A DNA stretch of 64,000 nucleotides from Ralstonia sp. UNC404CL21Col. GTDB lineage: Bacteria > Pseudomonadota > Gammaproteobacteria > Burkholderiales > Burkholderiaceae. The position numbers were made by a program, and so were the translations under genes. The notes beneath the pieces were generated by a model that was not told the origin of the DNA, made no database searches, and worked only from the letters and a program-made list of their open reading frames with translations. Below are positions 15,358 to 31,929 of this stretch, in pieces (position 1 is the first letter of the stretch; each line of letters starts with the position of its first letter). The DNA lies in contig NZ_JIBE01000004.1 of assembly GCF_000620465.1 (NCBI RefSeq), forward strand, positions 1,240,001-1,304,000, read 5' to 3'.

Positions 15358-16623
15358 ATGGACAGGCAATGCACGCAAACGCAGGGGATGTCCCGCGATC
15401 GGCTCGATCGCGTCGAGTGCTTCATCGATGACGCCTACATTGCGACCGGCAAGCTGCCCGGTACGCTCACCCAGGTGTGGCGGCGCGGCGAACTGGCGTT
15501 GAACTCCGTGCTGGGTTGGGCCGACCGCGAGCGCCAGGTGCCGCTGGCTGAAGACTCGATCTTCCGCATCTATTCGATGACCAAGCCGATCACGTCGGTG
15601 GCGTTCATGATGCTGGTGGAGGAATGCAAGGTCGCGCTGGACGATCCGGTCAGCAAATTCATCCCCGCATGGAAAAACCTGGGCGTGTACGTCGGCGGCT
15701 TCATGGAAGGTTTCCAGTCGCGCCCGGTCAAGCGCCCGATGCGCATGGTCGACCTGCTGCGCCACACCTCCGGCCTGACTTACGGCTTCCACCAGAACAC
15801 CAACGTCGATGCAGCCTATCGGCGGCTGAAACTGGGTGACGTCGTCACCGGTGGCACGCTCGACGAGATGATCGAGAAGCTGGCCGGCGTGCCGCTGGAG
15901 TTCTCGCCCGGTGAGGCGTGGAACTACTCCGTTTCCACCGATGTGCTCGGCTACCTTGTCGGCAAGATCAGCGGCATCCCGTTCGAGACGTTCCTGAAGG
16001 AACGGATCTTCGATCCGCTGGGCATGGTCGATACGGCCTTCCATGTGCCGGAGGAGAAGGCATCGCGCTTCTGCGCGTGTTATGCCGTGGGGGCGCTCGG
16101 CACGAACGCGGTGTCCGATCGCGCGCCGGTCTTGCAGGACGATCCACGCACCAGTCCGTATCTGAAGCCGCCCAGTTTCGTGTCGGGCGGCGGTGGCTTG
16201 CTCTCGACGGCGGCCGACTACCTGCGCTTTTCGCGCATGCTGCTGCAGGGCGGTGAGCTGGACGGCGTGCGCCTGCTGGGGCCCAAAACGGTGGCGCTGA
16301 TGACTGCCAACCATCTGCCGGGCGGGGCTGACATGTCGAGCCTGTCGCCGCATTCGATGTTCAGCGAGGCCGCATATGACGGCGTCGGGTTCGGACTGGG
16401 CTTCGCGACCACGATCTCGCAGGCCGCTACGTTGATTCCCGGTAGCACAGGCGATTTCTTCTGGGGCGGCGCGGCTGGCACCTTCTTCTGGGTGGATCCG
16501 CAGGAAGACCTGATCGGCCTGTTCCTGACGCAGGTGCTGCCTTCGTCTGCCTACCCTGTGCGGCGGCAATTGCGCACGCTGGTCTACAGCGCGATCACCG
16601 ATGTGGGCGGCGCGGCGTGTTGA
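15358..16623 (+). CDS. Serine hydrolase of the class C beta-lactamase fold (EstB-like esterase)
   Basis: A 421-residue protein of the beta-lactamase/penicillin-binding fold. The nucleophile motif S-x-x-K is SMTKP at about residue 74, and the second catalytic element is WNYSVSTDVLGYL, where class C enzymes have Tyr-x-Asn. RHTSGLTYGFH and GGGGLLSTAADYLRFS are typical of the EstB/carboxylesterase branch. No signal peptide is seen, so a cytoplasmic esterase or transesterase is more likely than a beta-lactamase. ATG 15358 follows AAGGAG; the ATG 15 bases earlier precedes that site. It is divergent from the LysR gene. Confidence 0.88.
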   Translation: MDRQCTQTQGMSRDRLDRVECFIDDAYIATGKLPGTLTQVWRRGELALNSVLGWADRERQVPLAEDSIFRIYSMTKPITSVAFMMLVEECKVALDDPVSKFIPAWKNLGVYVGGFMEGFQSRPVKRPMRMVDLLRHTSGLTYGFHQNTNVDAAYRRLKLGDVVTGGTLDEMIEKLAGVPLEFSPGEAWNYSVSTDVLGYLVGKISGIPFETFLKERIFDPLGMVDTAFHVPEEKASRFCACYAVGALGTNAVSDRAPVLQDDPRTSPYLKPPSFVSGGGGLLSTAADYLRFSRMLLQGGELDGVRLLGPKTVALMTANHLPGGADMSSLSPHSMFSEAAYDGVGFGLGFATTISQAATLIPGSTGDFFWGGAAGTFFWVDPQEDLIGLFLTQVLPSSAYPVRRQLRTLVYSAITDVGGAAC

Positions 16624-16694: not shown

Positions 16695-18227
16695 TCAAAC
16701 GTCGAATCGAACGCCCTGCGCCAGCGGCAGCGCGCCGCTGTAGTTGACGGTGTTGGTGGCGCGGCGCATGTAGCCCTTCCACGCGTCCGAGCCGGATTCC
16801 CGGCCGCCGCCGGTTTCCTTCTCGCCGCCGAATGCGCCGCCGATCTCGGCGCCCGACGTGCCGATGTTGACGTTGGCGATGCCGCAGTCGCTACCTGCCG
16901 ACGACATGAAGCGTTCGGCGTCGCTCAGGTTGGCTGTGAAGATCGCAGACGACAGACCCTGCGGCACGCCGTTCTGGATCGCGATGGCCTGTTCGGTGTC
17001 GCCGTCGTACGTCACGACATAGAGGATCGGCGCGAAGGTTTCGCTTTCCATCACCTTGGTCGGCTTCGGCATCTTGACCAGCGCAGGACGGACGTACCAG
17101 GCGTCGGCGCCGAGGTCTTCGCGCACGCGCTCACCGCCCAGCACTTCGCCGCCTTCGGCCCGGGCTTGCGCGAGTGCCTGCTGCATGCCGTCGAAGGCGG
17201 CCTGGTCGATCAACGGGCCGACCAGCGTGCCCTCAGCCAGCGGGTCGCCAATCGCAATGCTCTGGTAGATCTTTTCCAGGCGAGCGAGCAGCGTATCGGC
17301 CACCGAGCGGTGCACGATCAAACGGCGCAGCGACGTGCAGCGTTGGCCCGCGGTGCCGACGGCGGCAAACGTGATGGCGCGCGCCGCCAGTTCCAGATCC
17401 GCCGACGGCGTGACGATCATCGCGTTGTTGCCGCCCAGCTCCAGGATGGAGCGGCCGAAGCGTTCCGCCACCTTCACGCCCACCTGGCGGCCCATGCGCG
17501 TCGAGCCCGTGGCGCTGACCACCGGCACCAGGTGGCTGGCGACCAGCGCTTCGCCCACGTCGCGCCCGCCGATCAGCAGTTGGCTCAGTCCGGCAGGAAT
17601 GGCGCCCGGCTTCTCTGCATTGAACGCGTCGACCACCTGTTGCATCAGGTGGTGGCATGCAATGGCGGTGAGCGGTGTTTTCTCCGACGGCTTCCACACG
17701 ATGGCGTTGCCGCACACCAGGGCGAGCGCGGCGTTCCACGACCACACCGCCACCGGAAAGTTGAACGCCGAAATGATGCCCACCACGCCCATCGGATGCC
17801 ACGTTTCCATCATCCGGTGCCCCGGGCGCTCGCTGGCGATGGTGAGGCCATGCAGTTGCCGCGACAGGCCGACGGCGAAGTCGCAGATGTCGATCATCTC
17901 CTGCACTTCGCCCAGGCCCTCGGAGGTGATCTTGCCCGCTTCGAGCGAGACCAGTTCGCCCAGCGCCGCCTTGTGCGTACGCAGCACCTCGCCCAGGCGG
18001 CGCACGAGTTCGCCGCGCACGGGTGCCGGCACGATGCGCCATGCCAGATACGCTTGATGCGCACTCTGGATGGCAGCCTCGGCCTGGCCGGCGGTATGCG
18101 ATTTCACGGTCGCCAATACCGTGCCATCGCGCGGGGCGCGGCTCGTCCAGTCCGTGCCTTCATAGGCCTTCAGGTCCAGGCCGAGGGCCTTCAGTACGGT
18201 CTGCAATCGTGTTCGGGAATCTGACAT
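16695..18227 (-). CDS. amaB: 2-Aminoadipate semialdehyde dehydrogenase-like aldehyde dehydrogenase (ALDH7 type)
   Basis: A 510-residue NAD(P)-dependent aldehyde dehydrogenase that most resembles the antiquitin/AmaB/PcD group, which oxidises 2-aminoadipate 6-semialdehyde to 2-aminoadipate. Catalytic residues are N156 (SAFNFP), K179 (VWKPSE), E263 (ILELGGNN) and C297 (GTAGQRCTSL); the C-terminus GGGRESGSDAWKGYMRR is characteristic of ALDH7. It is the last gene of the minus-strand run that begins with the ABC ATPase at 25005, 67 bases after the binding protein. In Pseudomonas putida AmaB acts directly after pipecolate oxidation, which matches the flavoenzyme genes upstream here. The substrate assignment is inferred. 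Confidence 0.8.
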   Translation of the reverse strand: MSDSRTRLQTVLKALGLDLKAYEGTDWTSRAPRDGTVLATVKSHTAGQAEAAIQSAHQAYLAWRIVPAPVRGELVRRLGEVLRTHKAALGELVSLEAGKITSEGLGEVQEMIDICDFAVGLSRQLHGLTIASERPGHRMMETWHPMGVVGIISAFNFPVAVWSWNAALALVCGNAIVWKPSEKTPLTAIACHHLMQQVVDAFNAEKPGAIPAGLSQLLIGGRDVGEALVASHLVPVVSATGSTRMGRQVGVKVAERFGRSILELGGNNAMIVTPSADLELAARAITFAAVGTAGQRCTSLRRLIVHRSVADTLLARLEKIYQSIAIGDPLAEGTLVGPLIDQAAFDGMQQALAQARAEGGEVLGGERVREDLGADAWYVRPALVKMPKPTKVMESETFAPILYVVTYDGDTEQAIAIQNGVPQGLSSAIFTANLSDAERFMSSAGSDCGIANVNIGTSGAEIGGAFGGEKETGGGRESGSDAWKGYMRRATNTVNYSGALPLAQGVRFDV

Positions 18228-18294
18228 GGCGTGAATCCTTGCTCTTCTCTCGTGTTCAATCGAAAAACTGTTGCGATGCGGTGAGGCGTAAGGC

Positions 18295-19359
18295 TCAACG
18301 CTCGACGATGCGGTTCCAGCGCTTGCTCCACTCGGGGCGCTCGGCGTTGATCACGTCCCAGTCCAGCGCAACGGCCGTCTTCAGGATGGTGTTCATCTTG
18401 TTCTGCTCTTCCGCCGCCTTGCCCTTGAGCGGGGCCTTGGGGTTGACTGGATTGTAGGAGCCGTTTTCCATGGCGAGCGCCTGAGCTTCGGGACTGATCA
18501 GATAGTCCGCCAGCTTCTGCGCCAGCTCGGCATCCGGATTGTTGGCCAGCACGCACTGCGCTGTGAGCAGAACGACGGCACCTTCCTTGGGCGCGACGAA
18601 TTCCATCGGGATGCCCTTGGACTTCATCAGCTCCACCTGCGTGAGCGTGTACGGGAACAGCGCCGCATCGCCGGCCTGCATCATCTCCACCACCTTCGAC
18701 GAGTTGGGGATGTACTCGACCACGTTCGGGCCGATGGTGGTCGGCCATGCCTTGAAGGCCGGGTCGACGTTCTTTTCCGTGCCGCCCTTCATGCGGTTGA
18801 ACATCAGGAAGGCATCGAGCCCGAACGACGAAGCCGGCATGGATTGCACGACCACCTTGCCCTTGTATTTCGGGTCAGCCAGGTCGCCCCACGAGGTGGG
18901 CGGCGTCCAGCCCTTGTCGGCAAAGATCTTGGTGCTGTAGGCCAGGCCCGTCAGGCCCATCGACAAGCCGACCGCGTAGTCCCCCTTGAGGTGCGCAATG
19001 GCGGGCACCGCCGACAGGTTGGCCGAGGGCTTGAGCTTTTCGCACAGCCCCATGCCGATGGCGCGGAACATGACACCGTCGTCCAGCGTCATCACGTGCA
19101 TCTGTGCCTTACCTTTGGTGGCTTGCGCCTTGGCGAGGATGTCGGTCGAGGTGCCGGGCACGACGACGACCTTGACGTTGTTGGCCTTCTCGAACGGCGG
19201 GAATACGAACTGCGTGTAGGTGCGCTCCATGTTGCCGCCGTTCATGCCGATGTACAGCGTCTTGGTGTCGGCGTGGGCGGCGCCCGCGGCGAGCAGGGCC
19301 ATACCGGCAGCCGCAGCAATGACGGACGTGAACGATGTTTTCGCGTGTTTCACAAGCAT
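18295..19359 (-). CDS. ABC transporter periplasmic substrate-binding protein (putrescine/iron type)
   Basis: A 354-residue type 2 binding protein with a Sec signal peptide (MLVKHAKT, then an Ala-rich core, cleavage after AAHA). The mature start TKTLYIGMNGGNMERTYTQF and later VVVVPGTSTDILAKAQ match the family-1/8 extracellular proteins that serve polyamine, iron and opine importers. ATG 19359 follows CAGGAG. It lies inside the flavoenzyme and dehydrogenase operon, apart from the permease genes but on the same strand, and should feed the permeases at 22282-23944. The ligand is not readable; pipecolate or another lysine-derived amino acid is the guess from context. Confidence 0.85.
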   Translation of the reverse strand: MLVKHAKTSFTSVIAAAAGMALLAAGAAHADTKTLYIGMNGGNMERTYTQFVFPPFEKANNVKVVVVPGTSTDILAKAQATKGKAQMHVMTLDDGVMFRAIGMGLCEKLKPSANLSAVPAIAHLKGDYAVGLSMGLTGLAYSTKIFADKGWTPPTSWGDLADPKYKGKVVVQSMPASSFGLDAFLMFNRMKGGTEKNVDPAFKAWPTTIGPNVVEYIPNSSKVVEMMQAGDAALFPYTLTQVELMKSKGIPMEFVAPKEGAVVLLTAQCVLANNPDAELAQKLADYLISPEAQALAMENGSYNPVNPKAPLKGKAAEEQNKMNTILKTAVALDWDVINAERPEWSKRWNRIVER

Positions 19360-19385
19360 GGTGATCTCCTGGGGCATCAAGTGCA

Positions 19386-20519
19386 TCAAGCTGCGGGTGG
19401 CAGAAAGCGTTGGATGGAAAAGGGCTCGATCGGCGTGGTGGTGCGGCCTTCGGCGATCAGCTCGGCCATGACATCGCCCACGCCGGGGCCGAGTTGGAAG
19501 CCGGCGCCGGCAAAGCCGAACGCGTGGAACAGGCCGGGGCGGCGGGCACTGGGGCCAATCACGGGCTGGTCGTCGGGCAGGTTGCCTTCAGTGCCGCTCC
19601 AGGTGCGGATGATGTGGGCACCGGTGAGCTGCGGCAGCAGCGCCGCCAGTTGCGGCAGCTGGCGCAGGATCGCCACGTGCGACGAGCGTGCGCGCTGGTC
19701 ATCCAGCACGTAGCCGCGCCCGCCGCCGAACACCACATTGCCCCGCCGAACCTGGCGGCAGTAAATGCCGCCGCCTTCCACGCCCAGGCTCCAGGGCAGG
19801 AAGAATGGCAGCGGCTCGGTCACGCCCATGGTGGGCGGGATGGTGAACATCGGTACGGGCTCGCCCCATTGCGCGGCAAACTGGGCGGCCCACGCCCCGG
19901 CGCAGTTGACGAGCGCAGAGGCTTTGACCTCCAGATCGCGATCATGCTGGCGCGCATGGACGACGAAGCGCGCACCATCGTGCTCGACCGATTGCACCGG
20001 CGCGTGCTCGCGTACATCGGCGCCGGCAGCCTGCGCGGCGCGAGCGAACGCGGGCGACAGCAGGCGCGGATTGGCTTGTCCGTCTTCCGGGCACAGCGAG
20101 CCGCCGACGATCTGTTCGCCGCCCATCGGAAAAACTCTCTGCAGCGCGGCCCGGCCCTCGATGAGCTTCAGCCCAAGGCCAAACCCCTCGCTGCGCGCTG
20201 CATAGCTGGCCAGCGATTCCATGTCCGCCACGCTGCGCGCGATCTTGAAGTGCCCGCTGCGTTCGTACTCGGCCTCGGTGCCGATCAGCTCGGTCAGGCG
20301 CCCCCAGATCTGGTGCGAACGCTGGGCCAGCGGCAGTTGCTCGATGGAGCGCCCCTGGCGCCGCACGCCGCCAAAATTGACGCCGCTGGAGCGCGAGCCG
20401 CACAGGTCGCGTTCGAGCAAGGTGACGGTCAGCCCGCGCCGCCGCAGGAACAGCGCCGTGGCGCTGCCCATGATGCCGCCGCCGATGATGGCCACGTCGC
20501 ATGCAAGCTGCTCACGCAT
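19386..20519 (-). CDS. FAD-dependent amino-acid oxidase/dehydrogenase, HcnC/OoxB-like beta subunit
   Basis: A 377-residue DAO-family flavoprotein. The FAD dinucleotide motif is AIIGGGIMGSATALFL at residues 10-25, with VTLLERDLCGSRSSG next, and the C-terminal flavin-binding block is HAFGFAGAGFQLGPGVGD. In HcnABC and in the opine oxidases OoxAB/NoxAB this kind of subunit removes a hydride from a C-N bond. Its start overlaps the end of the preceding HcnB-like gene by eight bases, so the subunits are translated together. The substrate proposed here is pipecolate or a related cyclic or secondary amino acid. Confidence 0.82.
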   Translation of the reverse strand: MREQLACDVAIIGGGIMGSATALFLRRRGLTVTLLERDLCGSRSSGVNFGGVRRQGRSIEQLPLAQRSHQIWGRLTELIGTEAEYERSGHFKIARSVADMESLASYAARSEGFGLGLKLIEGRAALQRVFPMGGEQIVGGSLCPEDGQANPRLLSPAFARAAQAAGADVREHAPVQSVEHDGARFVVHARQHDRDLEVKASALVNCAGAWAAQFAAQWGEPVPMFTIPPTMGVTEPLPFFLPWSLGVEGGGIYCRQVRRGNVVFGGGRGYVLDDQRARSSHVAILRQLPQLAALLPQLTGAHIIRTWSGTEGNLPDDQPVIGPSARRPGLFHAFGFAGAGFQLGPGVGDVMAELIAEGRTTTPIEPFSIQRFLPPAA

Positions 20520-21942
20520 GGTGGTCCTCCGGTTCGATCACCTCGGTCACATCCAGCGGCAGCGGCTTGATCGGCGCCTGACCGCGCAGTCGCCCCACCT
20601 GTGCCAGCGGCACGGACTGCGCGTGGGCCAGGATTTCTGCTGCCGACGCGCCGCACATCCGGCCCTGGCAGCGGCCCATGCCGACCCGGCACAGCGCCTT
20701 CAGGCGGTTCAGTTCATGCACGCCGCATTCCGCGGCCGTCTGGCGCAGGGTGCCCGCGGTGACGTTTTCGCAGCGGCACACCACCAGGTCGTCGCTGGCG
20801 TGCGCGGCCCAGTCATCGGGAAATGGGAAGGCGATTTCCAGCGCGTGGCGGAACCGCTCGATCTTCTGCAGGCGCTGGCGCAGCGCGTCCAGACGATCGG
20901 CATCGACGGTGATTTGCCGATCCTGCAACAGGGCGAGCGCGGCCAATTCACCGGAGTACTCGGCTGCGTCGGCACCCATGATGCCCGCGCCGTCGCCCGC
21001 CAGATACACGCCCGCGACGGAGCTGCGCCGCATCGCATCGATGCGCGGCACATGGCAGCGGTGGAGCGCAGAAAACTCGAACGCGCAGCCCAGCAGATCG
21101 GCGAGCTGCGTTTCGGGCCGCAGCGCGTAGCCCATGCCCACCGCGGAGCACGCCGTGCGCTGCTCGCGGCCGGCGCTGTCGTGCCACACGAGCTGTTCGA
21201 CCGCCGCATCGCCCTCGGCGCGCAGCAGTCGCACGCCATGATGCATGGGAATGCCGTGCAGCTTGAGCCAGGCGACCAGCGCCAACCCCTTGGCCATGAC
21301 GGCGGGCTGCCCCAGCATGGCCGGTGCCGCCTTGTAGCGCGCGGAGGCCGGTGCGGTGTCGAGCACCGCCACGACATTCGCGCCGGCCTTCGCGTACTGG
21401 CAGGCCACCAGATACAGCAGCGGGCCGGTGCCGGCAAACACCACGGCATCGCCAATTGCACAGCCCTGGTATTTGAGCGCGACTTGCGCACCGCCCAGCG
21501 TATAGACGCCGGGCAGCGTCCAACCTGGGATGGGCAGCACGCGGTCGGTGGCGCCGGTCGCGACGATCACATCCCGCCAGGGCAGGCTGCTGACCGCGCG
21601 CGTTGGCACGTGCAGCAGGTCGAGCAGATCGGGCTGCGCATTCCATACCAGGGTCTGCGGGTGGTAATCGATCTGCGGTTGGAGGCGGTCGAAGGTGGCG
21701 TGTATTGCCTGCGCACGTTCGGCTTCGGTGCCGTACAGATCGGCGGCGCTCCGGGCGAAGCCGTCCGGCTGGCGGCGATAGATCTGGCCGCCCGAGCGCG
21801 GCGCTTCATCCAGCACGATGGGTTTGAGGCCGTGCGCCAGCAGCGTCTGCGCCGCACGCACACCTGCCGGCCCGGCACCGATGATGACGGGCTGCAGATC
21901 CGCTTGCGACTGCCGCTGCAGCGTGGGGGCGGGTTGCGTCAT
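20512..21942 (-). CDS. FAD/[2Fe-2S] oxidoreductase, HcnB/OoxA-like alpha subunit
   Basis: A 476-residue pyridine-nucleotide-disulfide-fold flavoprotein. The first dinucleotide motif is VIIGAGPAGVRAA, with LDEAPRSGGQIYRR behind it; a second Rossmann loop is VVFAGTGPLLYLVA. The C-terminal domain carries CRCENVTAG and, 30-odd residues on, CRVGMGRCQGRMCG, which supplies the cysteines of a BFD-like [2Fe-2S] cluster. ATG 21942 overlaps the stop of the small ferredoxin-like gene by one base. It is the electron-transfer half of a multi-subunit dehydrogenase whose catalytic partner is the DAO-type gene immediately downstream. Confidence 0.85.
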   Translation of the reverse strand: MTQPAPTLQRQSQADLQPVIIGAGPAGVRAAQTLLAHGLKPIVLDEAPRSGGQIYRRQPDGFARSAADLYGTEAERAQAIHATFDRLQPQIDYHPQTLVWNAQPDLLDLLHVPTRAVSSLPWRDVIVATGATDRVLPIPGWTLPGVYTLGGAQVALKYQGCAIGDAVVFAGTGPLLYLVACQYAKAGANVVAVLDTAPASARYKAAPAMLGQPAVMAKGLALVAWLKLHGIPMHHGVRLLRAEGDAAVEQLVWHDSAGREQRTACSAVGMGYALRPETQLADLLGCAFEFSALHRCHVPRIDAMRRSSVAGVYLAGDGAGIMGADAAEYSGELAALALLQDRQITVDADRLDALRQRLQKIERFRHALEIAFPFPDDWAAHASDDLVVCRCENVTAGTLRQTAAECGVHELNRLKALCRVGMGRCQGRMCGASAAEILAHAQSVPLAQVGRLRGQAPIKPLPLDVTEVIEPEDHHA

Positions 21943-22268
21943 CACGCGGCCCCCTCGTTGCCGGCCGGCTGCGTGCAGATGTGCATGCCGGGTTCGATCA
22001 TGGTCTGGCAGGCGCGCAGCGATTTGCCGTCGGCCAGCCGCACCCAGCAGTCCTGGCATGCGCCCATCAGGCAGAAGCCGGCGCGCGGCTGCTGGCTGAA
22101 TTCATTGATGCGCAACTGGCGTGTGTGCGTGAGCACGGCTGTCAGGACGGTGTCCCCGGCGAGGGCTTCAGCGGGCTGGCCGTCCAGCACGAAGGCCACC
22201 GTGGGGCGGTTGCGCTCTTTGAGGCGCTGGAGCTGCGCGCGGGCAGAGCGGTTTGCAGGAGCATTCAT
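21942..22268 (-). CDS. Small [2Fe-2S] subunit, HcnA-like
   Basis: A 108-residue ferredoxin-like protein. After a basic N-terminus comes a beta-grasp region (VAFVLDGQPAEALAGDTVLTAVL) and the cluster residues in GFCLMGACQDCWV and RACQT, which gives four cysteines in the Cx4-5Cx2C..C arrangement of the HcnA and 2Fe-2S alpha-type subunits. Its stop overlaps the start of the HcnB-like gene by one base. Together with the next two genes it completes a three-subunit membrane-associated or soluble dehydrogenase in the gene order of hcnABC. Confidence 0.85.
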   Translation of the reverse strand: MNAPANRSARAQLQRLKERNRPTVAFVLDGQPAEALAGDTVLTAVLTHTRQLRINEFSQQPRAGFCLMGACQDCWVRLADGKSLRACQTMIEPGMHICTQPAGNEGAA

Positions 22269-22281
22269 CGTGATCTCTGTC

Positions 22282-23076
22282 TCAATGCTTGCCGATCAGG
22301 ATCCGGTCCAGGCCGTAGACCTTGTCCAGCAGCAGCATCAACGCGAGCGTGAGGAAGACGATCAGCGCCGAGACGGCGGCCATCATCGGGTCGAGCGATT
22401 CCGTGGCGTACATGTACATGCGCACCGGCAGCGTGACGGTGGCCGGCGACACCACGAAGATCGACATCGTCAGTTCATCAAAGCTGTTGATGAAGGCCAG
22501 CAGCCAGCCGCCCGTGATGCCCGGCAGGATCATCGGCAGCGTCATGCGGCGGAACACCGTCAAGCTGCTCGCGCCCAGCGAATAGGCGGCGTGCTCGACC
22601 GAGTGGTCAAAGCCCACCAGCGCCGCCATCACCAGCCGCATCGTGTACGGCGTGACGATCAGCGCGTGCGCGAAGATCAGCCAGCCGAAGCTGCCTTGCC
22701 CGCCCACCAGCGAGAACATGCGCAGCAGCGCCACGCCCAGCACAAGGTGCGGAATGATCAGCGGCGACAGAAACACGCCTTGCAGATACTGCAGCCCCGG
22801 CGCGCGGTAGCGGACGATGGCCATGGCTGCCGGCACCGCCAGTGCGGTCGACAGCGTGGCTGCCGCCAGGCCCAGCCAGAGGCTGTTCCAGAACGACTGC
22901 ACGAAGTCGGGGTGATGCAGCACCTGGTCGAACCAGCGCAGCGAGAAATGACTGGTGGGCAGCGTGAGCGTTTCTTCGGGCGTGAAGGCGACGATGCACA
23001 CGATCACCAGCGGGGCCAGCATGAAGGTGATGACGAGTGCGTTGAAGATGAGCGCGAGCGGTCCGTTCTTTTGCAT
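22282..23076 (-). CDS. ABC transporter permease (PotC-like)
   Basis: A 264-residue inner-membrane permease with six predicted helices. The EAA-type loop that contacts the ATPase is seen as HAAYSLGASSLTVFRRMTLP. Such PotC-type permeases form a heterodimer with a PotB-type partner, encoded here by the preceding gene ten bases upstream. The first helix (LIFNALVITFMLAPLVIVCI) and the periplasmic loop length fit the family. It is followed, 13 bases later, by the HcnA-like gene, so transport and oxidation are encoded in one transcript. Confidence 0.88.
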   Translation of the reverse strand: MQKNGPLALIFNALVITFMLAPLVIVCIVAFTPEETLTLPTSHFSLRWFDQVLHHPDFVQSFWNSLWLGLAAATLSTALAVPAAMAIVRYRAPGLQYLQGVFLSPLIIPHLVLGVALLRMFSLVGGQGSFGWLIFAHALIVTPYTMRLVMAALVGFDHSVEHAAYSLGASSLTVFRRMTLPMILPGITGGWLLAFINSFDELTMSIFVVSPATVTLPVRMYMYATESLDPMMAAVSALIVFLTLALMLLLDKVYGLDRILIGKH

Positions 23077-23086
23077 GTGCGCTCCT

Positions 23087-23940
23087 TCAGCCCAACGTCT
23101 TCTTGTAGCGGCCTTCGATCATGCGGTTCCAGCCCAGCATGATGACGAGGTTGGCCGCCAGCAGGATCAGCGCGATGGCTGCGCCCAGCGGCCAGTTCAG
23201 TTCGTTCAGGTATTCGTCGTAGATGAGCGTGGCGACCATCTTCACGCGGCGCCCGCCCAGCAGGCCCGGAATGGCGAACGAGCTTGCCGCCAGGCCGAAG
23301 ACGATGAGGCTGCCCGACAGAATGCCTGGCATGACCTGCGGCAGCACCACGCGGCGCAACGTCGTGAAGTGCGATGCGGACAACGACAGCGCGGCGTTTT
23401 CCACCCACGGGTCGAGCTTTTGCAGTGACGTCCACACCGGAATCACCATGAACGGCAGCATGACGTGCACCAGCGCAATCACCACGGCCGTCTCGTTGTA
23501 CAGCAGCTTGACCGGGCCGATGCCGACCGCCTTGAACGCCGCATTGATCAGGCCTTCGGGCCCGAGCAGCATGCTCCAGCCGAATGCGCGCACCACGACC
23601 GAGATCAGCAGCGGCGCCAGGATGATGAGCAGGAAAATCGAGCGCCAGGGCTTGCGCATCCGGCTCAGGATGTAGGCCTCGGGCGCGCCGATCACGATGC
23701 AGATCAGCGTCACGAGCGCCGAGACGCGCAGCGTGCGCCAGAAGATTTCGTAGTAGTACGGGTCTTGCACCACGTGCAGGTAGTGCGCAAACGTGAAGGT
23801 GCCCGCAATCGGGCCCTTGTCGGCGTCGAACGCGTTGAACGACAGCATCACGCTCAGCGCGAGCGGCACGAACAGCATCACGCCGAAGAGCGCCAGCGCC
23901 GGGCCGGTCATGCTCCACGGCACCCAGATCGGTCTGCGGC

Positions 23941-23944
<4 letters not shown>
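23087..23944 (-). CDS. ABC transporter permease (PotB-like)
   Basis: A 285-residue inner-membrane permease with about six helices and an EAA-type loop reading NAALSLSASHFTTLRRVVLP. ATG 23944 overlaps the stop of the ATPase gene as ATGA, so the two are coupled. The longer frame adds 71 Arg-rich residues that are plainly the ATPase gene read out of frame. It pairs with the PotC-like gene ten bases downstream to form the membrane channel of the importer. Confidence 0.87.
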
Positions 23945-25005
<1,061 letters not shown>

Positions 25006-25138
25006 CGGTGATCCTTTGCGACTGGGGGCGTCGCCAGACTCTTCCAATTGAACAATATGAATATGCTATTGCAACAGGCATGCCAAAACATCGATTTCGC
25101 CTAGGTGTATACGCTGTAGTTGGAATTTTTCTCATATT

Positions 25139-25157
25139 TATTCCGTTCATCGGAATA
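25139..25157. promoter_or_regulatory. Candidate IclR operator in the divergent gap
   Basis: A perfect inverted repeat TATTCCG, five bases, CGGAATA lies 36 bases before the IclR start codon and 134 bases upstream of the ABC ATPase start. Extra half-sites TGGAAT (25121) and ATTCCA (25182) flank it. TTCC/GGAA palindromes are usual IclR-family targets. A TTGAAC-rich, AT-rich stretch at 25049-25075 nearer the ATPase probably contains its promoter. Confidence 0.55.
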
Positions 25158-25192
25158 CAATCGATCAACCAAATTCAGTCCATTCCAGCTTT

Positions 25193-26035
25193 ATGTCCGT
25201 AGATTCCGACGACGACGCGCATCAGCGCAGCGCCATGCACCGCACCTTCCAGATCCTGCGCACCATGGCGGAGCAGCAGCACCAAGGTGTGCGCGTCACC
25301 TACCTGGCCAAGACGCTGGGAATGACGCCTGCCACCACACACCGCCTGCTGCAGGGGCTGACGCAGGAGGGCATGGTCGAGCAGGATCAGCAGAACAAGC
25401 TGTACCGGCTGAGCCTGGATCTTTTCTGTCTGGCGGCCCAGGCGGGAGCGGTGAACGACTTGCGCTCCGTCGCCCGGCCGGCCCTGCTGCGGTTGAATGC
25501 CAGCCTGGGCGACACGGTGCTGCTGCTGGTGCGCTCGGGCTTCGATGCGGTGTGCCTGGATCGCGTGGAAGGGCAGTACCCCATTCGCACCTTCACCGGC
25601 GATGTGGGCGGCCGGATCGAACTCGGCGTCGGCCAGGGCGCGCTGGTGATCCTTGCGCACCTGCCCGACGCCGAGCAGGAGGAAGTGCTGCGCTACAACC
25701 TGCCGCGCATCCGGCACTACAGCGTCTACGACGAGGTCTATCTGCGCTCCGAGGTCAGGAAGGCACGCCAGCGCGGCTACAGCGCCAAGACGGACGGGCT
25801 GCTCGAAGGCATGGCCGGTATTGCCGTGCCCGTGTTCGATCGCAACGGCAACGTCGTCGCCGCGCTTTCCGTGGGTACGCTCGCCAACCGCCTGAGCGCC
25901 GATCGCCTGCCCATCGTCTACGACATGCTGCTGCGCGAGGCCAATCGCCTGACCACGCAGATCAATCCGTTCGATCCGACGCTGCGCCGCCCGATGCAGT
26001 CGATGGCCGTGAGCGATACCTATCGCGCCATCTGA
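25193..26035 (+). CDS. IclR-family transcriptional regulator
   Basis: A 280-residue regulator. The N-terminal winged helix (residues about 14-75) contains VTYLAKTLGMTPATTHRLLQ as recognition region, and the C-terminal effector domain (about 95-260) contains GRIELGVGQGALVILA and GIAVPVFDRNGNVVAALSV, both IclR family blocks. It diverges from the ABC importer/dehydrogenase operon and runs convergently into the FAD oxidase gene with a 16-base overlap of coding ends. Position and the palindrome upstream suggest that it represses the importer operon until a pathway metabolite binds. Confidence 0.9.
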   Translation: MSVDSDDDAHQRSAMHRTFQILRTMAEQQHQGVRVTYLAKTLGMTPATTHRLLQGLTQEGMVEQDQQNKLYRLSLDLFCLAAQAGAVNDLRSVARPALLRLNASLGDTVLLLVRSGFDAVCLDRVEGQYPIRTFTGDVGGRIELGVGQGALVILAHLPDAEQEEVLRYNLPRIRHYSVYDEVYLRSEVRKARQRGYSAKTDGLLEGMAGIAVPVFDRNGNVVAALSVGTLANRLSADRLPIVYDMLLREANRLTTQINPFDPTLRRPMQSMAVSDTYRAI

Positions 26036-27459
26036 CCCGGCCGCCGTTCGAGCACGCGGCCCGGGTTCAGCAGGCATTGCGGGTCGAGTGCCTGCTTGAT
26101 CGTCTGCATCAACTGCAGGGCCACCGGCGCCTTGTAGTGCGGAAGGTGGTCGCGCTTGAGCGCGCCGATGCCGTGCTCGGCCGAGATCGAACCGCCAAAG
26201 CGGTGGACGGACTGGTACACCGCATCGCCAATCGCAGCCTCATGCGCGGCAACGAACGCCGCAGCGTCCGCCCCGGCCGGCGGCTGTACGTTGTAGTGCA
26301 GGTTGCCGTCGCCCAGGTGCCCGAAGTTGATGAGCCGCAGCCCCGGCGCGAGCGCCTGCAGTTGCGCATCGGTCTGCGCCACGAACTCGGGGATGCGCGA
26401 GATCGGCACCGAGACATCGTGCTTGATGTTGGGCCCTTCGGCTGCCTGGGCCAGGGTGATGCTCTCGCGGATGTGCCACAGGTCGTGCGCCTGCCGGATG
26501 TTTTCGGCAATGATCGCGTCCGTCACGATGCCGTCTTCCATCGCGGTTTCCAGCAGGTGTTCGAACTGTGCGCGGGCATGCGCCTCCGATTCACTGTCGG
26601 ACGCTTCCAGCAGCACGCACCACATCGTTTCGCGCCACATCGGCACGCGCAGTTGCGGATAGTGCGTGTCGACCAGCCTGAGCCCTTCCTGGCTCATCAC
26701 CTCAAAACCCGTGAGCGCCGCAGACAGATGCCGGTGCGACAACGCCAGCAATGCCGTGGCGGCTTGCAGTGACGGCACCGCGGCCCACGCCGTCAATTGC
26801 GCGGCCGGTTGCGGATACAGCCGCAGCGTGGCCGCCGTGATGATGCCCAGCGTGCCCTCGCTGCCGATGAACAGATTGCGCAGGTCATAGCCGGTGTTGT
26901 CCTTGCGCAGGCCTTGCAGGTTTTCCCAGACCTGGCCGTCGGCCAGCACGACTTCCAGCCCCAGGCACAGCTCGCGCGCATTGCCATAGCGCAGCACCTG
27001 CGTGCCGCCCGCATTGGTCGCCAGGTTGCCGCCGATGGTGCAACTGCCTTCCGCACCCAGGCTCAGCGGGAACAGCATGCCGGCTTCGCTTGCCACGCCC
27101 TGCAGCGACTGGAGTACGCAACCGGCGTCCACCGTCATCGTCATGTTGGCGGCGTCGATGGCGCGCACGGTCTGCATGCGGCGCAGGCTCAGGATGATTT
27201 GCTCGCCGCTGGCATCGGGCACCGAGCCTTCCACCAGCCCTGTATTGCCACCTTGCGGCACGATGGACACACCGGCTTGTGCGCACGCGCGCACGACCGC
27301 AGCCACATCGGCCGTGCAGCCGGGCCGCACCACGCACAGCGCCTTGCCGCGCACGCGCTGGCGCCAATCGGATTCGTATTCGGCGCAGTCGTCGCCGGTC
27401 AGAACATTGGCGGCCCCCACGATGTCGCGCAAGGCCGGAATCAGGTTGTCGGGTGTCAT
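26020..27459 (-). CDS. FAD-linked dehydrogenase, D-2-hydroxyglutarate dehydrogenase-like
   Basis: A 479-residue VAO/GlcD-fold flavoenzyme. The FAD-binding blocks are SIVPQGGNTGLVEGS and LGAEGSCTIGGNLATNAGG. The C-terminal domain has the metal-binding NFGHLGDGNLHYN and the SAEHGIGALKRD motif shared by D-lactate and D-2-hydroxyglutarate dehydrogenases. ATG 27459 opens the family N-terminus; a much longer frame through this point is the aminotransferase read out of frame. It lies 37 bases after the aminotransferase in the HglS operon. In Pseudomonas lysine breakdown an enzyme of this family turns D-2-hydroxyglutarate, the HglS product, into 2-oxoglutarate, so that role is inferred here. Confidence 0.83.
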   Translation of the reverse strand: MTPDNLIPALRDIVGAANVLTGDDCAEYESDWRQRVRGKALCVVRPGCTADVAAVVRACAQAGVSIVPQGGNTGLVEGSVPDASGEQIILSLRRMQTVRAIDAANMTMTVDAGCVLQSLQGVASEAGMLFPLSLGAEGSCTIGGNLATNAGGTQVLRYGNARELCLGLEVVLADGQVWENLQGLRKDNTGYDLRNLFIGSEGTLGIITAATLRLYPQPAAQLTAWAAVPSLQAATALLALSHRHLSAALTGFEVMSQEGLRLVDTHYPQLRVPMWRETMWCVLLEASDSESEAHARAQFEHLLETAMEDGIVTDAIIAENIRQAHDLWHIRESITLAQAAEGPNIKHDVSVPISRIPEFVAQTDAQLQALAPGLRLINFGHLGDGNLHYNVQPPAGADAAAFVAAHEAAIGDAVYQSVHRFGGSISAEHGIGALKRDHLPHYKAPVALQLMQTIKQALDPQCLLNPGRVLERRPGQMAR

Positions 27460-27496
27460 GGCAATGCGATGAAGGGGGTCTCTGTCTGAGGAGGCG

Positions 27497-28747
27497 TCAA
27501 CGCATGGCGAGCGCCACGGCGGCCGCCAGCCGCTGCACGGCCTGTTCGATCTGCGGCACCTCGGGCGCGGCAAACGACAGGCGCATGGTGTTGAGCTGCG
27601 CGTTGTCCGGGTAGAACGCCTTGCCGGGCACATACAGCACCTGCTGCGACACGGCGGCGTCGAAGAGCGCCTGCGGGTCGATCGACTGGGCGATCGTGGC
27701 CCAGACAAACATGCCGCCCGCCGGCGCGGCGCACTGCATACGGCCATCCAGCTGCGTGGCGATGCCTTGCACCAGCGCCTGCATGCGCCGCTGATATTCG
27801 ACGCGTGCGCGCTGCACCGTGGCCGGATAGCGGCCACTTTCCAGATAGCGCGCCGCCACCATCTGCGCCAGCGGAGACGTGCACAGATCCACTGTCTGCT
27901 TGGCGATGGCGCAGCGGCGCAGCAGGCTGGCATCGGCCAGCATCCATCCGATCCGCAGCGCAGGCGCGACGGTCTTGGAAAGGCTGGAGAGATACACCAC
28001 CGGGTTCGTGCCGTCGACGGCCAGCCGATCGCCCACGGTGCTCAGGGTTGGAGGCATGGCTGCGGCGCTGCCCTGTGGCGCATCAAAGCGCAGCTCGCCG
28101 TAGGGATCGTCTTCCACCACCCAGAAGCCGTGCGCGCAGGCCAGCTGCACCAGGGCTTCGCGCCGCCGGGCGGCGAGCAGCGTGCCGCGCGGGTTGGAAA
28201 AATTCGGGACGGTGTAGAGCAGCTTGGGGCGCTGCGTGGCAGGCAGTTGATGCAGCAGGTCGGCCAGTGCATCAGTCTGCAGGCCGTGCTCGTCCATCGG
28301 CACGGGCACGATGTGGGCCTGCGCCAAGCGCAAGGCTTGCAGCGTGGCAGGGTAGGCCGGCACTTCCACCAGCACCGTATCCCCCGGTTCGATCAACGCC
28401 CGCACCAGCAGGTCGAAGGCTTGCTGCGAGCCGGTGGTGACCATCACCTGTTCGGCGCTGGCCTGGATGCCGCGTGCTTCCATCAATGCGGCGAGGGCTG
28501 TGCGGAGGACGGGCAGCCCTTCAGTCGCACCGTACTGCAAGGCCTGCGCATCGCCCGTCATGGCTTGCGCGGCGGCGTGCGCCAGGCCTTCAGCGTCGAA
28601 CAGGCTGGGCGACGGGTAACCGCCCGCCAGCGAGATCATCCCCGGCTGGCTGAGGTACGGAAACAGTTCACGGATGGGCGAGCCGGCGGGGTTTGCAAAA
28701 GGGGCGGCAAAGCCGGGCATGGCCGCAGGCGTGTGCGGGCCGGTCAT
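27497..28747 (-). CDS. PLP-dependent aminotransferase, LysN/2-aminoadipate aminotransferase-like
   Basis: A 416-residue fold-type I aminotransferase without the MocR DNA-binding domain. The Schiff-base lysine is K258 in LSSLSKTVAPALRIGWM, D214 (VVEDDPYGEL) contacts the pyridine nitrogen, and YTVPNFSNPRGT and MISLAGGYPSPSLF match the LysN/ARO8-like group, which uses 2-aminoadipate, leucine and kynurenine. Its start overlaps the HglS stop as ATGA, so the two are coupled. Placed between AmaB chemistry and HglS it should make 2-oxoadipate from 2-aminoadipate. Branched-chain specificity remains possible. Confidence 0.83.
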   Translation of the reverse strand: MTGPHTPAAMPGFAAPFANPAGSPIRELFPYLSQPGMISLAGGYPSPSLFDAEGLAHAAAQAMTGDAQALQYGATEGLPVLRTALAALMEARGIQASAEQVMVTTGSQQAFDLLVRALIEPGDTVLVEVPAYPATLQALRLAQAHIVPVPMDEHGLQTDALADLLHQLPATQRPKLLYTVPNFSNPRGTLLAARRREALVQLACAHGFWVVEDDPYGELRFDAPQGSAAAMPPTLSTVGDRLAVDGTNPVVYLSSLSKTVAPALRIGWMLADASLLRRCAIAKQTVDLCTSPLAQMVAARYLESGRYPATVQRARVEYQRRMQALVQGIATQLDGRMQCAAPAGGMFVWATIAQSIDPQALFDAAVSQQVLYVPGKAFYPDNAQLNTMRLSFAAPEVPQIEQAVQRLAAAVALAMR

Positions 28748-30153
28748 GCGGCGTCCACCACGGGCGTGCCGCGCAGCACGGCGCGCACCTGATCGATGGA
28801 GCGCTGCTGCGCGGCTTCGTACAGCGCGATTTCGTCATGCACGCGTGCGCCCAGCGCGGCCTCGAAGGCCTGCTGCGCGGCGTGGGCCTGATACTGCTTC
28901 TGCTCTTCGCCGCCCAGGTTGGACTGGAAGATGCCGGCCGCGCTGACCGGCAGGAAATCTTCATACGTGATGGGGTCGGCTTGTACCCAGCCCTTGGCCA
29001 GGAGTTCATCCAACGACAAATCGGCTGCCGTGGCTGCGTCGGCCTCTGCCTGGCCCGACGGCGTAAGCGTGTAGCGATAGAACGCCAGCCCTTGGGCGCG
29101 CAGCGCGTCATGGCTGTCGGGAAAGGCGCGGAACGCCTGTGCCAATCGACTTCCGTAGTTGGGTGCGGCACTGCCGGCATTGCCCATGGTGCGCACCTCG
29201 GCCAGCAGTTGGTCATACAGCGCGCGACCCTTGCGCGTGAGGGCCACGCCGCGCTGCTCGATTTCGCCAAAGCGCGCCGTGTGGGCGCCTGCATCGTCAG
29301 TAAAGCGCACCGCTTCCTGCAGCGCCTTGAAGCTGGTCTGGCGCAGCAGGATGGGGCAGTCGCGGCGCGGCGGGCCTTCCACCACATCCTTGGCATCCAT
29401 GCCGCGTGCGGGCATGGCCGCCTGAGCGGCGTCGATGTCGAGCGTGCGCGGTGTCAGGTGGTTGATGTGCGGGCCGCGGAAGCACACGACGTCGGCCACA
29501 AGGCGGTGAGCGGCTTGCAGCGCGCGATACGTCTCGGCGTCGACTGTGGCGGTGCTGTGCCAGCGGAAGGTCTCCAGCGCCTCGCGTACGAACGCGTCGG
29601 CATCCGCATCGGCCAGACCGCCGTCGGCTTCGCATTGGGCGATCAATTCGAGCACGCGCGGGGTAAAGATCTGCCGGCGCGCCAGGATGGCAGCGGCCTT
29701 GTCGCGTAGGGCAGCGTCGGCAATCAACTCAAGCCGCAGCAGCGAGGTGAACACGCGAAACGGGTTGGCCAGCAACGCGGCGTCGGTCACTGGGCGGAAC
29801 GCCGTCGAATGCACGGGCACGCCGGCCACCGACAGATCGTAGTAACCCACCGGTTCCATCCCCATGACGGCAAACAGCCGGCGCAGCGTGGCCAGCTCGG
29901 CGGCCGTGCCGACGCGGATGGCGCCGTGGCGCTCGATATCCAGCCGCTCCAGTTCGCCCGACTGCGCCATCTGCGCGCGCAGCGCGGGCTGGGCGTCCAG
30001 CGTGCGCGCGTTGATGTCTGCCACCAACTCGACCAGCGTGCCGTATTGCGGCACCTCCTCCCGGTACATGGCCGACATGGCGCGCGAAAAGCGCGAGCGG
30101 ATTTCATTTGCGTGGATGAAGTTCGACGCGGGAAGTTGATGCGCAGCGCTCAT
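28744..30153 (-). CDS. hglS: HglS-like 2-oxoadipate dioxygenase/decarboxylase (DUF1338/YdcJ family)
   Basis: A 469-residue DUF1338 protein. The family's characterised member, HglS of Pseudomonas putida, is an Fe(II) enzyme that converts 2-oxoadipate and oxygen to D-2-hydroxyglutarate with loss of CO2. Conserved residues visible here are H76 and R80 in ERHGAIR, H229 and H232 in GPHINHLTPR, and E297 in FGEIEQRG. From memory these align with the metal ligands and substrate arginine of HglS. It is the first gene of a three-gene operon with the aminotransferase and the D-2-hydroxyglutarate dehydrogenase-like gene, exactly its pathway neighbours. A LysR gene diverges from it. Confidence 0.85.
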   Translation of the reverse strand: MSAAHQLPASNFIHANEIRSRFSRAMSAMYREEVPQYGTLVELVADINARTLDAQPALRAQMAQSGELERLDIERHGAIRVGTAAELATLRRLFAVMGMEPVGYYDLSVAGVPVHSTAFRPVTDAALLANPFRVFTSLLRLELIADAALRDKAAAILARRQIFTPRVLELIAQCEADGGLADADADAFVREALETFRWHSTATVDAETYRALQAAHRLVADVVCFRGPHINHLTPRTLDIDAAQAAMPARGMDAKDVVEGPPRRDCPILLRQTSFKALQEAVRFTDDAGAHTARFGEIEQRGVALTRKGRALYDQLLAEVRTMGNAGSAAPNYGSRLAQAFRAFPDSHDALRAQGLAFYRYTLTPSGQAEADAATAADLSLDELLAKGWVQADPITYEDFLPVSAAGIFQSNLGGEEQKQYQAHAAQQAFEAALGARVHDEIALYEAAQQRSIDQVRAVLRGTPVVDAA

Positions 30154-30183
30154 GACTGAGTTGGATTGGGCAGTGGTGAAGCG

Positions 30184-30213
30184 ATGCTAGGTTGGCCAAT
30201 GAGCGGCGGTCAA
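30184..30213 (-). promoter_or_regulatory. Predicted promoter of the hglS operon
   Basis: On the minus strand TTGACC (30213-30208) and TAGCAT (30189-30184) are separated by 18 bases and lie 30 bases before the hglS start codon. The adjoining LysR-type dyad sits just upstream of the -35 box, which is an activator position. Confidence 0.5.
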
Positions 30214-30224
30214 ACGATAATCCG

Positions 30225-30257
30225 GCCTGAGGTCATTCCAAATTAGAATGATCAGGC
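30225..30257. promoter_or_regulatory. Candidate LysR operator between hglS and lysR
   Basis: A two-part dyad: GCCTGA at 30225-30230 faces TCAGGC at 30252-30257, and inside it TCATTC (30233-30238) faces GAATGA (30246-30251). It ends 31 bases before the LysR start and lies upstream of the predicted hglS -35 box, the standard site for a LysR regulator that both activates a divergent operon and controls itself. Confidence 0.6.
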
Positions 30258-30288
30258 GACTTTCGCACCGCACAACTTCTGCGCTTCC

Positions 30289-31209
30289 ATGTTCCTGTCT
30301 CGCCGCTTTCTGCCGCCGATGTCCCTGCTATGCGCGTTCGAGGCCGCCGCGCGCCACCAAAGCTTCACGGCGGCCGCCGCCGAGCTGCATCTCACGCAAA
30401 GCGCCGTCAGCCGCCAGATCCGCGCGCTGGAAGAGCGCCTGGGCGCCGAACTCTTCGTGCGCGAACGCCAGACCGTGCGGCTGAGCGCGGCGGGCCAGGC
30501 GTATGCAGAGGAAATCCGCGGCGCGTTGATGCGCATCTCCAGTGCCACGGTGGGGTTTCGTACCAATCCGCAGGGCGGCAGCTTGAATCTGGCCATCCTG
30601 CCGACCTTCGGCACCCGTTGGCTGGCGCCGCGCCTGCCGGCGTTTTTTGACGAGCACCCCGGCATCACCATCAATCTGACGACGCGGCTGTCGCAGTTCG
30701 ACTTTCAACTGGAGGCGGTGGACGCGGCCATCCATTTCGGTACGCCGCACTGGCCAGGGGCGGAGCTGGCGTTGCTGATGAGCGAAACCGTCGTGCCCGC
30801 CTGCAGCCCGGCGCTGCTGGCCCGTTACGACTTTGCGCAGCCGCGCGATCTGCTGCATGCGCCGCTGTTGCATCTGGCCTCCCGCCCCGATGCCTGGCCG
30901 CGTTGGCTGGCGAGCCATCAGGTGGCAGGTGCAGAACCCCAAGGCATGCTGTTCGACCAATTTGCCACCGCCGCGCAAGCTGCAGTGGCGGGGCTCGGCG
31001 TGGCGTTGCTGCCGCGTTTTCTGATCACCCACGAACTGCAGCAAGGCGATTTGGTGCGTGCATTGCCGCATGTGCCCGAGATGGAAAGCGCCGAGCGCTA
31101 CTACCTCGCCTGGCCGACGAGCCGTGCCGACTACCCGCCGCTCCAGGCGCTGCGGACATGGCTTGTGAAAGCGGCACAGGACTTCATGCCGACGCAGGGC
31201 GCGGAGTGA
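30289..31209 (+). CDS. LysR-family regulator (GcvA-like), likely activator of the hglS operon
   Basis: A 306-residue LysR regulator whose N-terminus (RFLPPMSLLCAFEAAARHQS, SFTAAAAELHLTQSAVSRQI) is typical of the GcvA/AmpR branch, with the recognition helix at residues about 30-50. The effector domain follows from about residue 95 (LNLAILPTFGTRWLAPRLP). It diverges from hglS over a 135-bp gap with a double dyad. The pathway logic suggests an effector such as 2-aminoadipate or 2-oxoadipate, but that is inference. No clear ribosome-binding site precedes ATG 30289. Confidence 0.88.
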   Translation: MFLSRRFLPPMSLLCAFEAAARHQSFTAAAAELHLTQSAVSRQIRALEERLGAELFVRERQTVRLSAAGQAYAEEIRGALMRISSATVGFRTNPQGGSLNLAILPTFGTRWLAPRLPAFFDEHPGITINLTTRLSQFDFQLEAVDAAIHFGTPHWPGAELALLMSETVVPACSPALLARYDFAQPRDLLHAPLLHLASRPDAWPRWLASHQVAGAEPQGMLFDQFATAAQAAVAGLGVALLPRFLITHELQQGDLVRALPHVPEMESAERYYLAWPTSRADYPPLQALRTWLVKAAQDFMPTQGAE

Positions 31210-31382: not shown

Positions 31383-31389
31383 CTCGCCT

Positions 31390-31926: not shown

Positions 31927-31929
31927 GAG

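Follow-up and report, generated by a model that had tools for sequence, protein, structure and literature searches.

A candidate two-operon catabolic island for a pipecolate-type substrate in Ralstonia sp. UNC404CL21Col

The closest described relatives of the locus reported here are the D-lysine/pipecolate pathway of Pseudomonas putida, which uses the pipecolate oxidase AmaA, and the heterotrimeric flavin dehydrogenases (OdhABC, D-hydroxyproline dehydrogenase, hydrogen cyanide synthase and archaeal L-proline dehydrogenase). We analysed a stretch of 64,000 nucleotides, called the window below, from Ralstonia sp. UNC404CL21Col (C4:1240001-1304000 of the 5.09-Mb genome). It contains an island of 14.5 kb (16695-31209) with 13 intact genes, which open reading frames and family searches place in two operons, each with a divergent regulator gene. 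We consider this, with a probability of roughly 0.6, a self-contained catabolic island that would lead from a pipecolate-type entry substrate to 2-oxoglutarate. The island shares the AmaB and HglS families with the P. putida pathway, and presumably also the chemistry from Δ1-piperideine-6-carboxylate (P6C) to 2-oxoglutarate. It differs in having a heterotrimeric dehydrogenase where P. putida has AmaA, in having a dedicated ATP-binding cassette (ABC) importer, and in clustering an aminotransferase and a dehydrogenase of the GlcD/D2HGDH class (D2HGDH, D-2-hydroxyglutarate dehydrogenase), not of the YdiJ type. Most of its parts are of known kinds, but the first step is assigned to a predicted three-part enzyme where the known pathway uses a pipecolate oxidase. 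An earlier note on this DNA had described the P. putida genes as scattered, which is only partly right. We take the P. putida HglS gene to be PP_5260. HglS lies near AmaB in one of two Pseudomonas loci viewed (L102, not L101), while AmaA and AmaB are adjacent in 12/12 named Pseudomonas genomes with an above-cut-off AmaA. PMC6034422 assigns action on L-pipecolate and compounds further down the pathway to PP5257 and PP5258, which their numbers place side by side.

Operon 1 consists of the genes for an ATPase, two permeases, the gamma, alpha and beta subunits of a flavoenzyme, a binding protein and AmaB, and is divergent from an IclR gene. Operon 2 consists of the genes for HglS, an aminotransferase and a D2HGDH-like enzyme, and is divergent from a LysR gene. 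Within both operons, no gap between neighbouring genes exceeds 67 bases, and the overlapping stops and starts suggest translational coupling. The features are as follows (window positions; all enzyme activities, including oxidation of P6C/2-aminoadipate semialdehyde by AmaB, are predicted from homology).

16695..18227, minus strand: AmaB/Pcd-type P6C/2-aminoadipate semialdehyde dehydrogenase (ALDH7; NF050084, 812 bits)
18295..19359, minus strand: periplasmic substrate-binding protein (open frame to 19389; likely start ATG at 19359)
19386..20519, minus strand: flavoenzyme beta subunit (catalytic, DAO-fold)
20512..21945, minus strand: flavoenzyme alpha subunit (flavin adenine dinucleotide (FAD) and BFD-type [2Fe-2S]; Pyr_redox_2, Fer2_BFD, SO_alpha_A3)
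21942..22268, minus strand: flavoenzyme gamma subunit ([2Fe-2S], Fer2_4; PF13510, 77.9 bits)
22282..23076, minus strand: PotC-like ABC permease (top NCBIfam match PotC, 148 bits, under the cut-off of 326)
23087..23944, minus strand: PotB-like ABC permease (top NCBIfam match PotB, 177 bits, under the cut-off of 348; start ATG at 23944, overlapping the ATPase stop)
23941..25005, minus strand: PhnT2/PotA-like ABC ATPase (373 bits, under 458; PotA 365 bits, under 482)
25139..25157, no strand: candidate IclR operator TATTCCG-N5-CGGAATA, a perfect palindrome between IclR and the cassette
25193..26035, plus strand: IclR-family regulator (IclR_C, HTH_IclR)
26020..27459, minus strand: D2HGDH-like FAD enzyme (GlcD/D2HGDH class, not YdiJ; PF01565, PF02913)
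27497..28747, minus strand: pyridoxal-phosphate aminotransferase of the LysN/AADAT class (structure matches; SLSK motif)
28744..30153, minus strand: HglS, 2-oxoadipate dioxygenase/decarboxylase (NF049974, 743 bits)
30233..30251, minus strand: candidate LysR operator TCATTC-N6-GGAATGA, between LysR and HglS
30289..31209, plus strand: LysR-family regulator (HTH_1, LysR_substrate), divergent from the HglS operon

The lower part of the route is assigned most firmly. The island aldehyde dehydrogenase exceeded the cut-off of the curated P6C dehydrogenase family (730 bits). Among characterised solved proteins it is closest to the semialdehyde dehydrogenase Pcd (6rtr, 685 bits), with alpha-aminoadipic semialdehyde dehydrogenase next (4x0t, 490 bits); the top row in the PDB, 6dbb (784 bits), is an uncharacterised, putative aldehyde dehydrogenase. 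The motifs GQRCT, ELGGNN and NIGTSG were seen in AmaB. HglS exceeded its family cut-off of 550 bits and matched hydroxyglutarate synthase 6w1g with 550 bits over about 450 aligned residues. According to PMC7286885, the metal ligands of HglS are His70, His226 and Glu294, and 2-oxoadipate is contacted by Arg74, Val402 and Ser403. Residues H76, R80, H232, E297, V403 and S404 of the island protein align with H70, R74, H226, E294, V402 and S403, respectively, and the His-His-Glu metal triad and the arginine for the distal carboxylate are kept. The aminotransferase matched 2-aminoadipate transaminase (2egy, 228 bits) and kynurenine/aminoadipate aminotransferase (160 bits), while three other aminotransferases scored higher than 2egy (263-272 bits). 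The last enzyme has D2HGDH as its closest characterised solved relative: mitochondrial D2HGDH (6lpn) gave 329 bits, compared with at most 192 bits for lactate dehydrogenases, and the top row, 3pm9 (457 bits), is uncharacterised. We take 6w1g to be the P. putida protein, and the D2HGDH and ALDH7 structures to be human. A YdiJ-type identity was rejected, as NF049975 gave 102 bits against a cut-off of 1350. The specificities of the aminotransferase and the D2HGDH-like FAD enzyme are putative. It is very probable that the island encodes conversion of P6C/2-aminoadipate semialdehyde to 2-aminoadipate, 2-oxoadipate, D-2-hydroxyglutarate and 2-oxoglutarate.

These results agree with much of the earlier note. 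Every gene that it listed was found at 16695-31209 and could be assigned to a recognised family, and its AmaB and HglS assignments and its D2HGDH-like enzyme were borne out by the equivalog cut-offs, the HglS residues and the margin over lactate dehydrogenases. Its LysN-like aminotransferase stands as to the LysN/AADAT class, with other aminotransferases scoring higher than 2egy. As for its route from pipecolate to 2-oxoglutarate, homology upholds the part from P6C onward, whereas the pipecolate entry rests on the link with AmaB and on the kind of flavoenzyme.

The first enzyme is predicted to be a heterotrimeric FAD/[2Fe-2S] dehydrogenase of the D-hydroxyproline/opine/L-proline dehydrogenase family. 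It shares with this family three subunits, FAD motifs (GxGxxG ADP-binding motif at position 13 of beta and 23 of alpha), the Arg-X-Trp motif for flavin mononucleotide in beta (R305 and W307 in 35/35 aligned sequences), the gamma [2Fe-2S] cysteines (Cx4Cx2Cx11-12C, present as CLMGACQDC, 12 residues and C, starting at residue 66), the C-A-B gene order of Burkholderia thailandensis and a neighbouring ABC transporter. The alpha subunit exceeded the Pfam Fer2_BFD cut-off (29 bits, cut-off 26). Its cysteines are C390-x-C392 and C426-x4-C431 with a spacing of 33, and a search for CxC/Cx4C with a spacing of 15-22 gave zero matches; the pattern for these dehydrogenases is printed as CxCx15-20Cx4C in PMC4575208. 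The nearest solved proteins to the beta-subunit model are L-proline dehydrogenase, sarcosine oxidase and glycine oxidase. The island enzyme forms a separate, AmaB-linked group, with alpha at least 53% identical to the orthologues in our sample, 35% to annotated OoxA and 33% to an Ri-plasmid protein. AmaA itself was considered as an island gene and ruled out, since the catalytic beta subunit scored 56.8 bits against the AmaA model NF050086 (cut-off 600).

The importer, which the earlier note had called putrescine-type, is only PotABCD-like, and polyamine importer as a family label was ruled out: the scores for the PotA, PotB, PotC and PotD equivalogs were 365, 177, 148 and 35 bits against cut-offs of 482, 348, 326 and 582. 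The binding protein matched receptors for iron, sugar phosphate, gamma-aminobutyrate, opine, thiamin and polyamine alike, so these unspecific structure matches permit no choice of ligand. Nor did the genes tried next to the cassette in loci of Comamonas, Herbaspirillum, Variovorax, Acidovorax and Pseudomonas point clearly to any metabolic role; they include a GhrA-like reductase, secretion genes, a CNNM/CorC protein, a chemoreceptor, a sodium/proton exchanger and a GMC oxidoreductase. Judged by titles and abstract openings, none of the open-licence papers among the matches listed is about a heterotrimeric pipecolate dehydrogenase or this cassette, which is weak evidence of novelty.

The connection of this enzyme to pipecolate comes mainly from comparative genomics. 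We examined the best 80 of 574 relatives, all named loci, a choice that favours close ones. The full eight-gene cassette (IclR, ATPase, two permeases, gamma, alpha, beta, binding protein) was found in 74/80 loci, and four of the six incomplete loci are on short contigs. IclR and ATPase genes are divergent across a short gap in 75/80 loci. Cassettes occur in Ralstonia, Acidovorax, Comamonas, Herbaspirillum, Variovorax, Curvibacter, Pseudomonas and other genera. AmaB, scored at 60% identity or more within the fetched flanks, was present in 42/80 loci (40/71 among loci longer than 20 kb). Its placement varies: in these 42 loci it is downstream on the same strand in 12, upstream on the opposite strand in 29 and downstream on the opposite strand in one. 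In a fourth arrangement (L087) it is upstream on the same strand, and the cassette, AmaB and an aminotransferase are joined. Three of the AmaB relatives were tested and scored 804-809 bits in the AmaB family. In 38 loci AmaB is out of reach; we searched the genomes of 31 of these (all but L025, L026, L040, L048, L056, L062 and L073), and 29 have AmaB above the cut-off elsewhere. We also used 300 genomes drawn evenly from the order. The alpha search matched 23 of them, of which nine (at least 53% identity) were taken as orthologues and 14 (35-43%) were excluded. AmaB occurs in 65/300 genomes (63 above cut-off) and together with an alpha orthologue in eight. This corresponds to 8/9 alpha-orthologue genomes versus 57/291 others (Fisher p = 2.5e-5), a value that is a guide only because the sampled genomes are related and differ in size. 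The varied physical linkage of AmaB and the cassette is a stronger argument than the p-value. In L092:6721-10628 and L100:7676-11567, consecutive genes for AmaB, a paralogue of the cassette binding protein (53-54%) and an aminotransferase follow a LysR gene of the same strand; no other part of the cassette was seen in the stretches read.

HglS is rare in the order (8/300 genomes). Where it lies beside the cassette, 8/10 loci keep the complete gene set, L009 being without the aminotransferase and D2HGDH genes and L011 without D2HGDH. In L009:4452-6891 (Ralstonia sp. SET104), HglS is immediately beside IclR. Within the genus, 14/16 genomes carry a relative of alpha, and all of these also carry HglS. 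In 13 of them the two share a contig at a distance of 4-7 kb, and in G361 they are on different contigs; G350 and G355 have neither. The lower module also occurs elsewhere, for instance in L089, with LysR, HglS and aminotransferase at 87, 79 and 64% identity, so the island joins this module to the cassette. HglS clustering with pathway genes is not unique to the island. In L083 and L084 (other Burkholderiales) HglS is clustered with AmaA and AmaB, and in L102 (Pseudomonas) AmaB-AmaA is near HglS; these clusters resemble the island in bringing AmaB and HglS together and differ in using AmaA instead of the cassette. No cassette, aminotransferase or D2HGDH relative was found in the stretches of these loci that were read, except for a general ABC ATPase match in L083. 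The claim that all steps are packed into one island therefore describes a notable arrangement and not a unique one.

A parallel island was observed on Agrobacterium plasmid pRiA4b (L096, 181116-198585), near rolB-family genes. Its first part runs LysR, binding protein, three-subunit flavoenzyme, permeases, ATPase and RidA, and its second part LysR, HglS, AmaB, aminotransferase, FAD/Fe-S dehydrogenase and saccharopine-dehydrogenase-family protein. The two islands have in common a three-subunit flavoenzyme, an ABC importer, HglS (60%), AmaB (65%) and an annotated aminotransferase. On the plasmid, the flavoenzyme is divergent (33%), the importer is of another type, the aminotransferase is unmatched by that of the window, and a two-domain FAD/Fe-S dehydrogenase and the saccharopine-dehydrogenase-family protein are present. 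The existence of this second island suggests more than one joining of three-subunit flavoenzymes and importers to the AmaB-HglS route.

Operon 1 is probably controlled by IclR and operon 2 by LysR; binding of these regulators to the operator-like sequences and their effectors are putative. TATTCCG-N5-CGGAATA occurs once, as a perfect palindrome, between the IclR and ATPase genes. In the window, 0.75 matches are expected by chance at up to three mismatches, and one was found, with zero mismatches. At up to two mismatches it was found in 51/60 non-redundant intergenic regions versus 0.17% of 1200 shuffles, where the box was derived from the same regions as were counted and the shuffles preserve base composition only. 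It is missing at two mismatches in L066, L070, L074, L076 and L078 (Pseudomonas) and some others. Genome-wide, its 17-base core has one perfect copy and ten one-mismatch places, and a control pattern has one match. TCATTC-N6-GGAATGA has one perfect copy in the genome, in the LysR/HglS gap, and five more places with one mismatch (control, zero). The LysR box is perfect in the seven cassette-plus-HglS loci scanned and has one mismatch between LysR and HglS in L084 and L089. Upstream of AmaB it occurs, perfect or with a single mismatch, in L102, L105, L106 and L107; in L105, L106 and L107 it sits at or close to the start of LysR. Thirty shuffles gave zero matches at one mismatch. At up to two mismatches the LysR box was not found in 8/25 loci scanned outside the window; the box scan gave none in the AmaB loci L085, L092, L099, L100 and L103, and the copies found in L083, L087, L088 and L101 all lie outside the LysR/target promoter. 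A LysR of 64% identity stands beside HglS-AmaA-AmaB in L084, and because the box with one mismatch also precedes these genes, one shared regulon is suggested.

The distribution of AmaA bears on the entry substrate. With the AmaA model at E 1e-80 or better, 12/300 genomes gave a match, one above the cut-off. In the four best (428-632 bits), AmaB is no more than about 3 kb away, and an alpha orthologue was not found. The eight weaker AmaA-like genes of this sample (290-369 bits) have no AmaB nearby by coordinates. We also sought AmaA in 49 cassette genomes, namely the 31 whose locus lacks AmaB and 18 others. Fifteen of these have an AmaA-like match of 328-357 bits, and in G328 (L077, P. syringae pv. 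cilantro) the AmaA match adjoining AmaB is in two pieces (C33:561316-562583).

Several observations weigh against a self-contained pipecolate island. HglS is in reach of the cassette in just 10/80 loci. AmaB was not found in 2/31 cassette genomes (L044 and L049, both Herbaspirillum) or in 1/9 alpha-orthologue genomes (G171). Furthermore, 53/65 AmaB genomes have neither an alpha orthologue nor AmaA of at least 428 bits, so AmaB serves other routes too. The weaker AmaA-like genes occur in 5/9 cassette genomes versus 3/291 others; one of the five is the genome of the window, whose AmaA-like protein (347 bits, under 600) is encoded outside the island. Above-cut-off AmaA adjoining AmaB is present together with the cassette in 12/49 cassette genomes, all Pseudomonas, where a cassette for oxidation of L-pipecolate would be redundant. 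Finally, for the characterised type-2 opine dehydrogenase of Bradyrhizobium japonicum, octopine is a substrate (Km 19.5 mM) and L-proline is not, according to PMC4575208.

Because Pseudomonas carry both AmaA and the cassette, a lysine conjugate is the main alternative, with a low but real probability. The cassette would import and oxidise saccharopine or another N6-substituted lysine and release 2-aminoadipate semialdehyde directly, with the remaining enzymes of the island acting as in the main reading, and AmaA-type enzymes would take pipecolate where present. The opine dehydrogenases in the flavoenzyme family, the C-A-B order of the B. thailandensis type-2 cluster, the mannopine and agropinic acid receptors among binding-protein relatives, and the Ri-plasmid island with its saccharopine-dehydrogenase-family protein are all in line with this. 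Against it, PMC4575208 describes family opine dehydrogenases as releasing an amino acid and a keto acid; such cleavage would yield lysine and 2-oxoglutarate, not the semialdehyde. Moreover, the similarity of alpha to OoxA and the Ri-plasmid protein is low (35 and 33%), and the nearest solved relatives are the proline, sarcosine and glycine enzymes. It is a similarly speculative idea that the widespread cassette feeds an opine-like plant or fungal lysine conjugate into the AmaB-HglS route, with Ralstonia, Variovorax, Herbaspirillum and the P. syringae group as scavengers.

Somewhat less likely still, the flavoenzyme may act on D-pipecolate, N-methyl-pipecolate or a D-amino acid and feed the same lower pathway through another upper step, with the AmaA-like protein elsewhere as the L-pipecolate oxidase. 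Such a protein is encoded in the window's genome and is over-represented among cassette genomes, and PMC4575208 points to kinship with D-hydroxyproline dehydrogenase. However, among eight named Ralstonia genomes the AmaA-like gene (E 1e-90) is present in four and the cassette in all eight. The own-genome gene (L082:6911-8371, match C3:1608111-1609346) belongs to another, amino-acid importer operon with a PcaR/IclR-type regulator gene adjacent, and the 16 kb read around it contained no AmaB. By established chemistry, oxidation of D-pipecolate at C2 would not yield P6C. It is very improbable that the two operons are unrelated neighbours, with the importer and flavoenzyme serving another substrate and HglS-aminotransferase-D2HGDH serving general lysine breakdown: HglS is out of reach in 70/80 loci, some of them short, and each operon has its own regulator and operator-like sequence, but AmaB inside the cassette operon would make the starting compound for operon 2, and its linkage to the cassette recurs across loci, and L087 unites cassette, AmaB and aminotransferase in a different arrangement.

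Economy of explanation favours L-pipecolate as the entry compound; the AmaB link and the kind of flavoenzyme make it the likeliest substrate, at slightly better than even odds. In the proposed route, the PotABCD-like importer would take up a lysine-derived amino acid, most likely L-pipecolate, and the alpha-beta-gamma flavin/[2Fe-2S] dehydrogenase would oxidise the secondary amine to P6C, presumably passing electrons to the respiratory chain. P6C would open to 2-aminoadipate semialdehyde, which AmaB would oxidise to 2-aminoadipate. The LysN-type aminotransferase would form 2-oxoadipate, HglS with O2 would convert this to D-2-hydroxyglutarate and CO2, and the D2HGDH-like enzyme would yield 2-oxoglutarate. 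If the flavoenzyme is a pipecolate dehydrogenase, it represents a second, architecturally different solution for the step of AmaA, which Burkholderiales with AmaB and the cassette but without AmaA would then possess. The eight-gene cassette with its operator-like site would then offer a genetic handle for studying how bacteria take up compounds of the pipecolate type. A lysine conjugate as the substrate would instead point to an unrecognised nutrient. The further suggestion that uptake of a plant immune signal by a plant-associated Ralstonia is involved found no support, as none of the best 80 of 574 loci comes from a named plant-pathogenic Ralstonia species; the Ralstonia-type carriers are R. 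pickettii, R. soli, Burkholderiaceae bacterium 26 and Ralstonia sp.

Beyond LysR, a PadR-type regulator and a nitronate-monooxygenase-like gene (window 31387-32934) show no sign of belonging to the island. At the other end, a beta-lactamase/esterase-family protein, whose top NCBIfam match (methyl acetate hydrolase) is far under the cut-off, is encoded at 15343-16623 and converges on the island.

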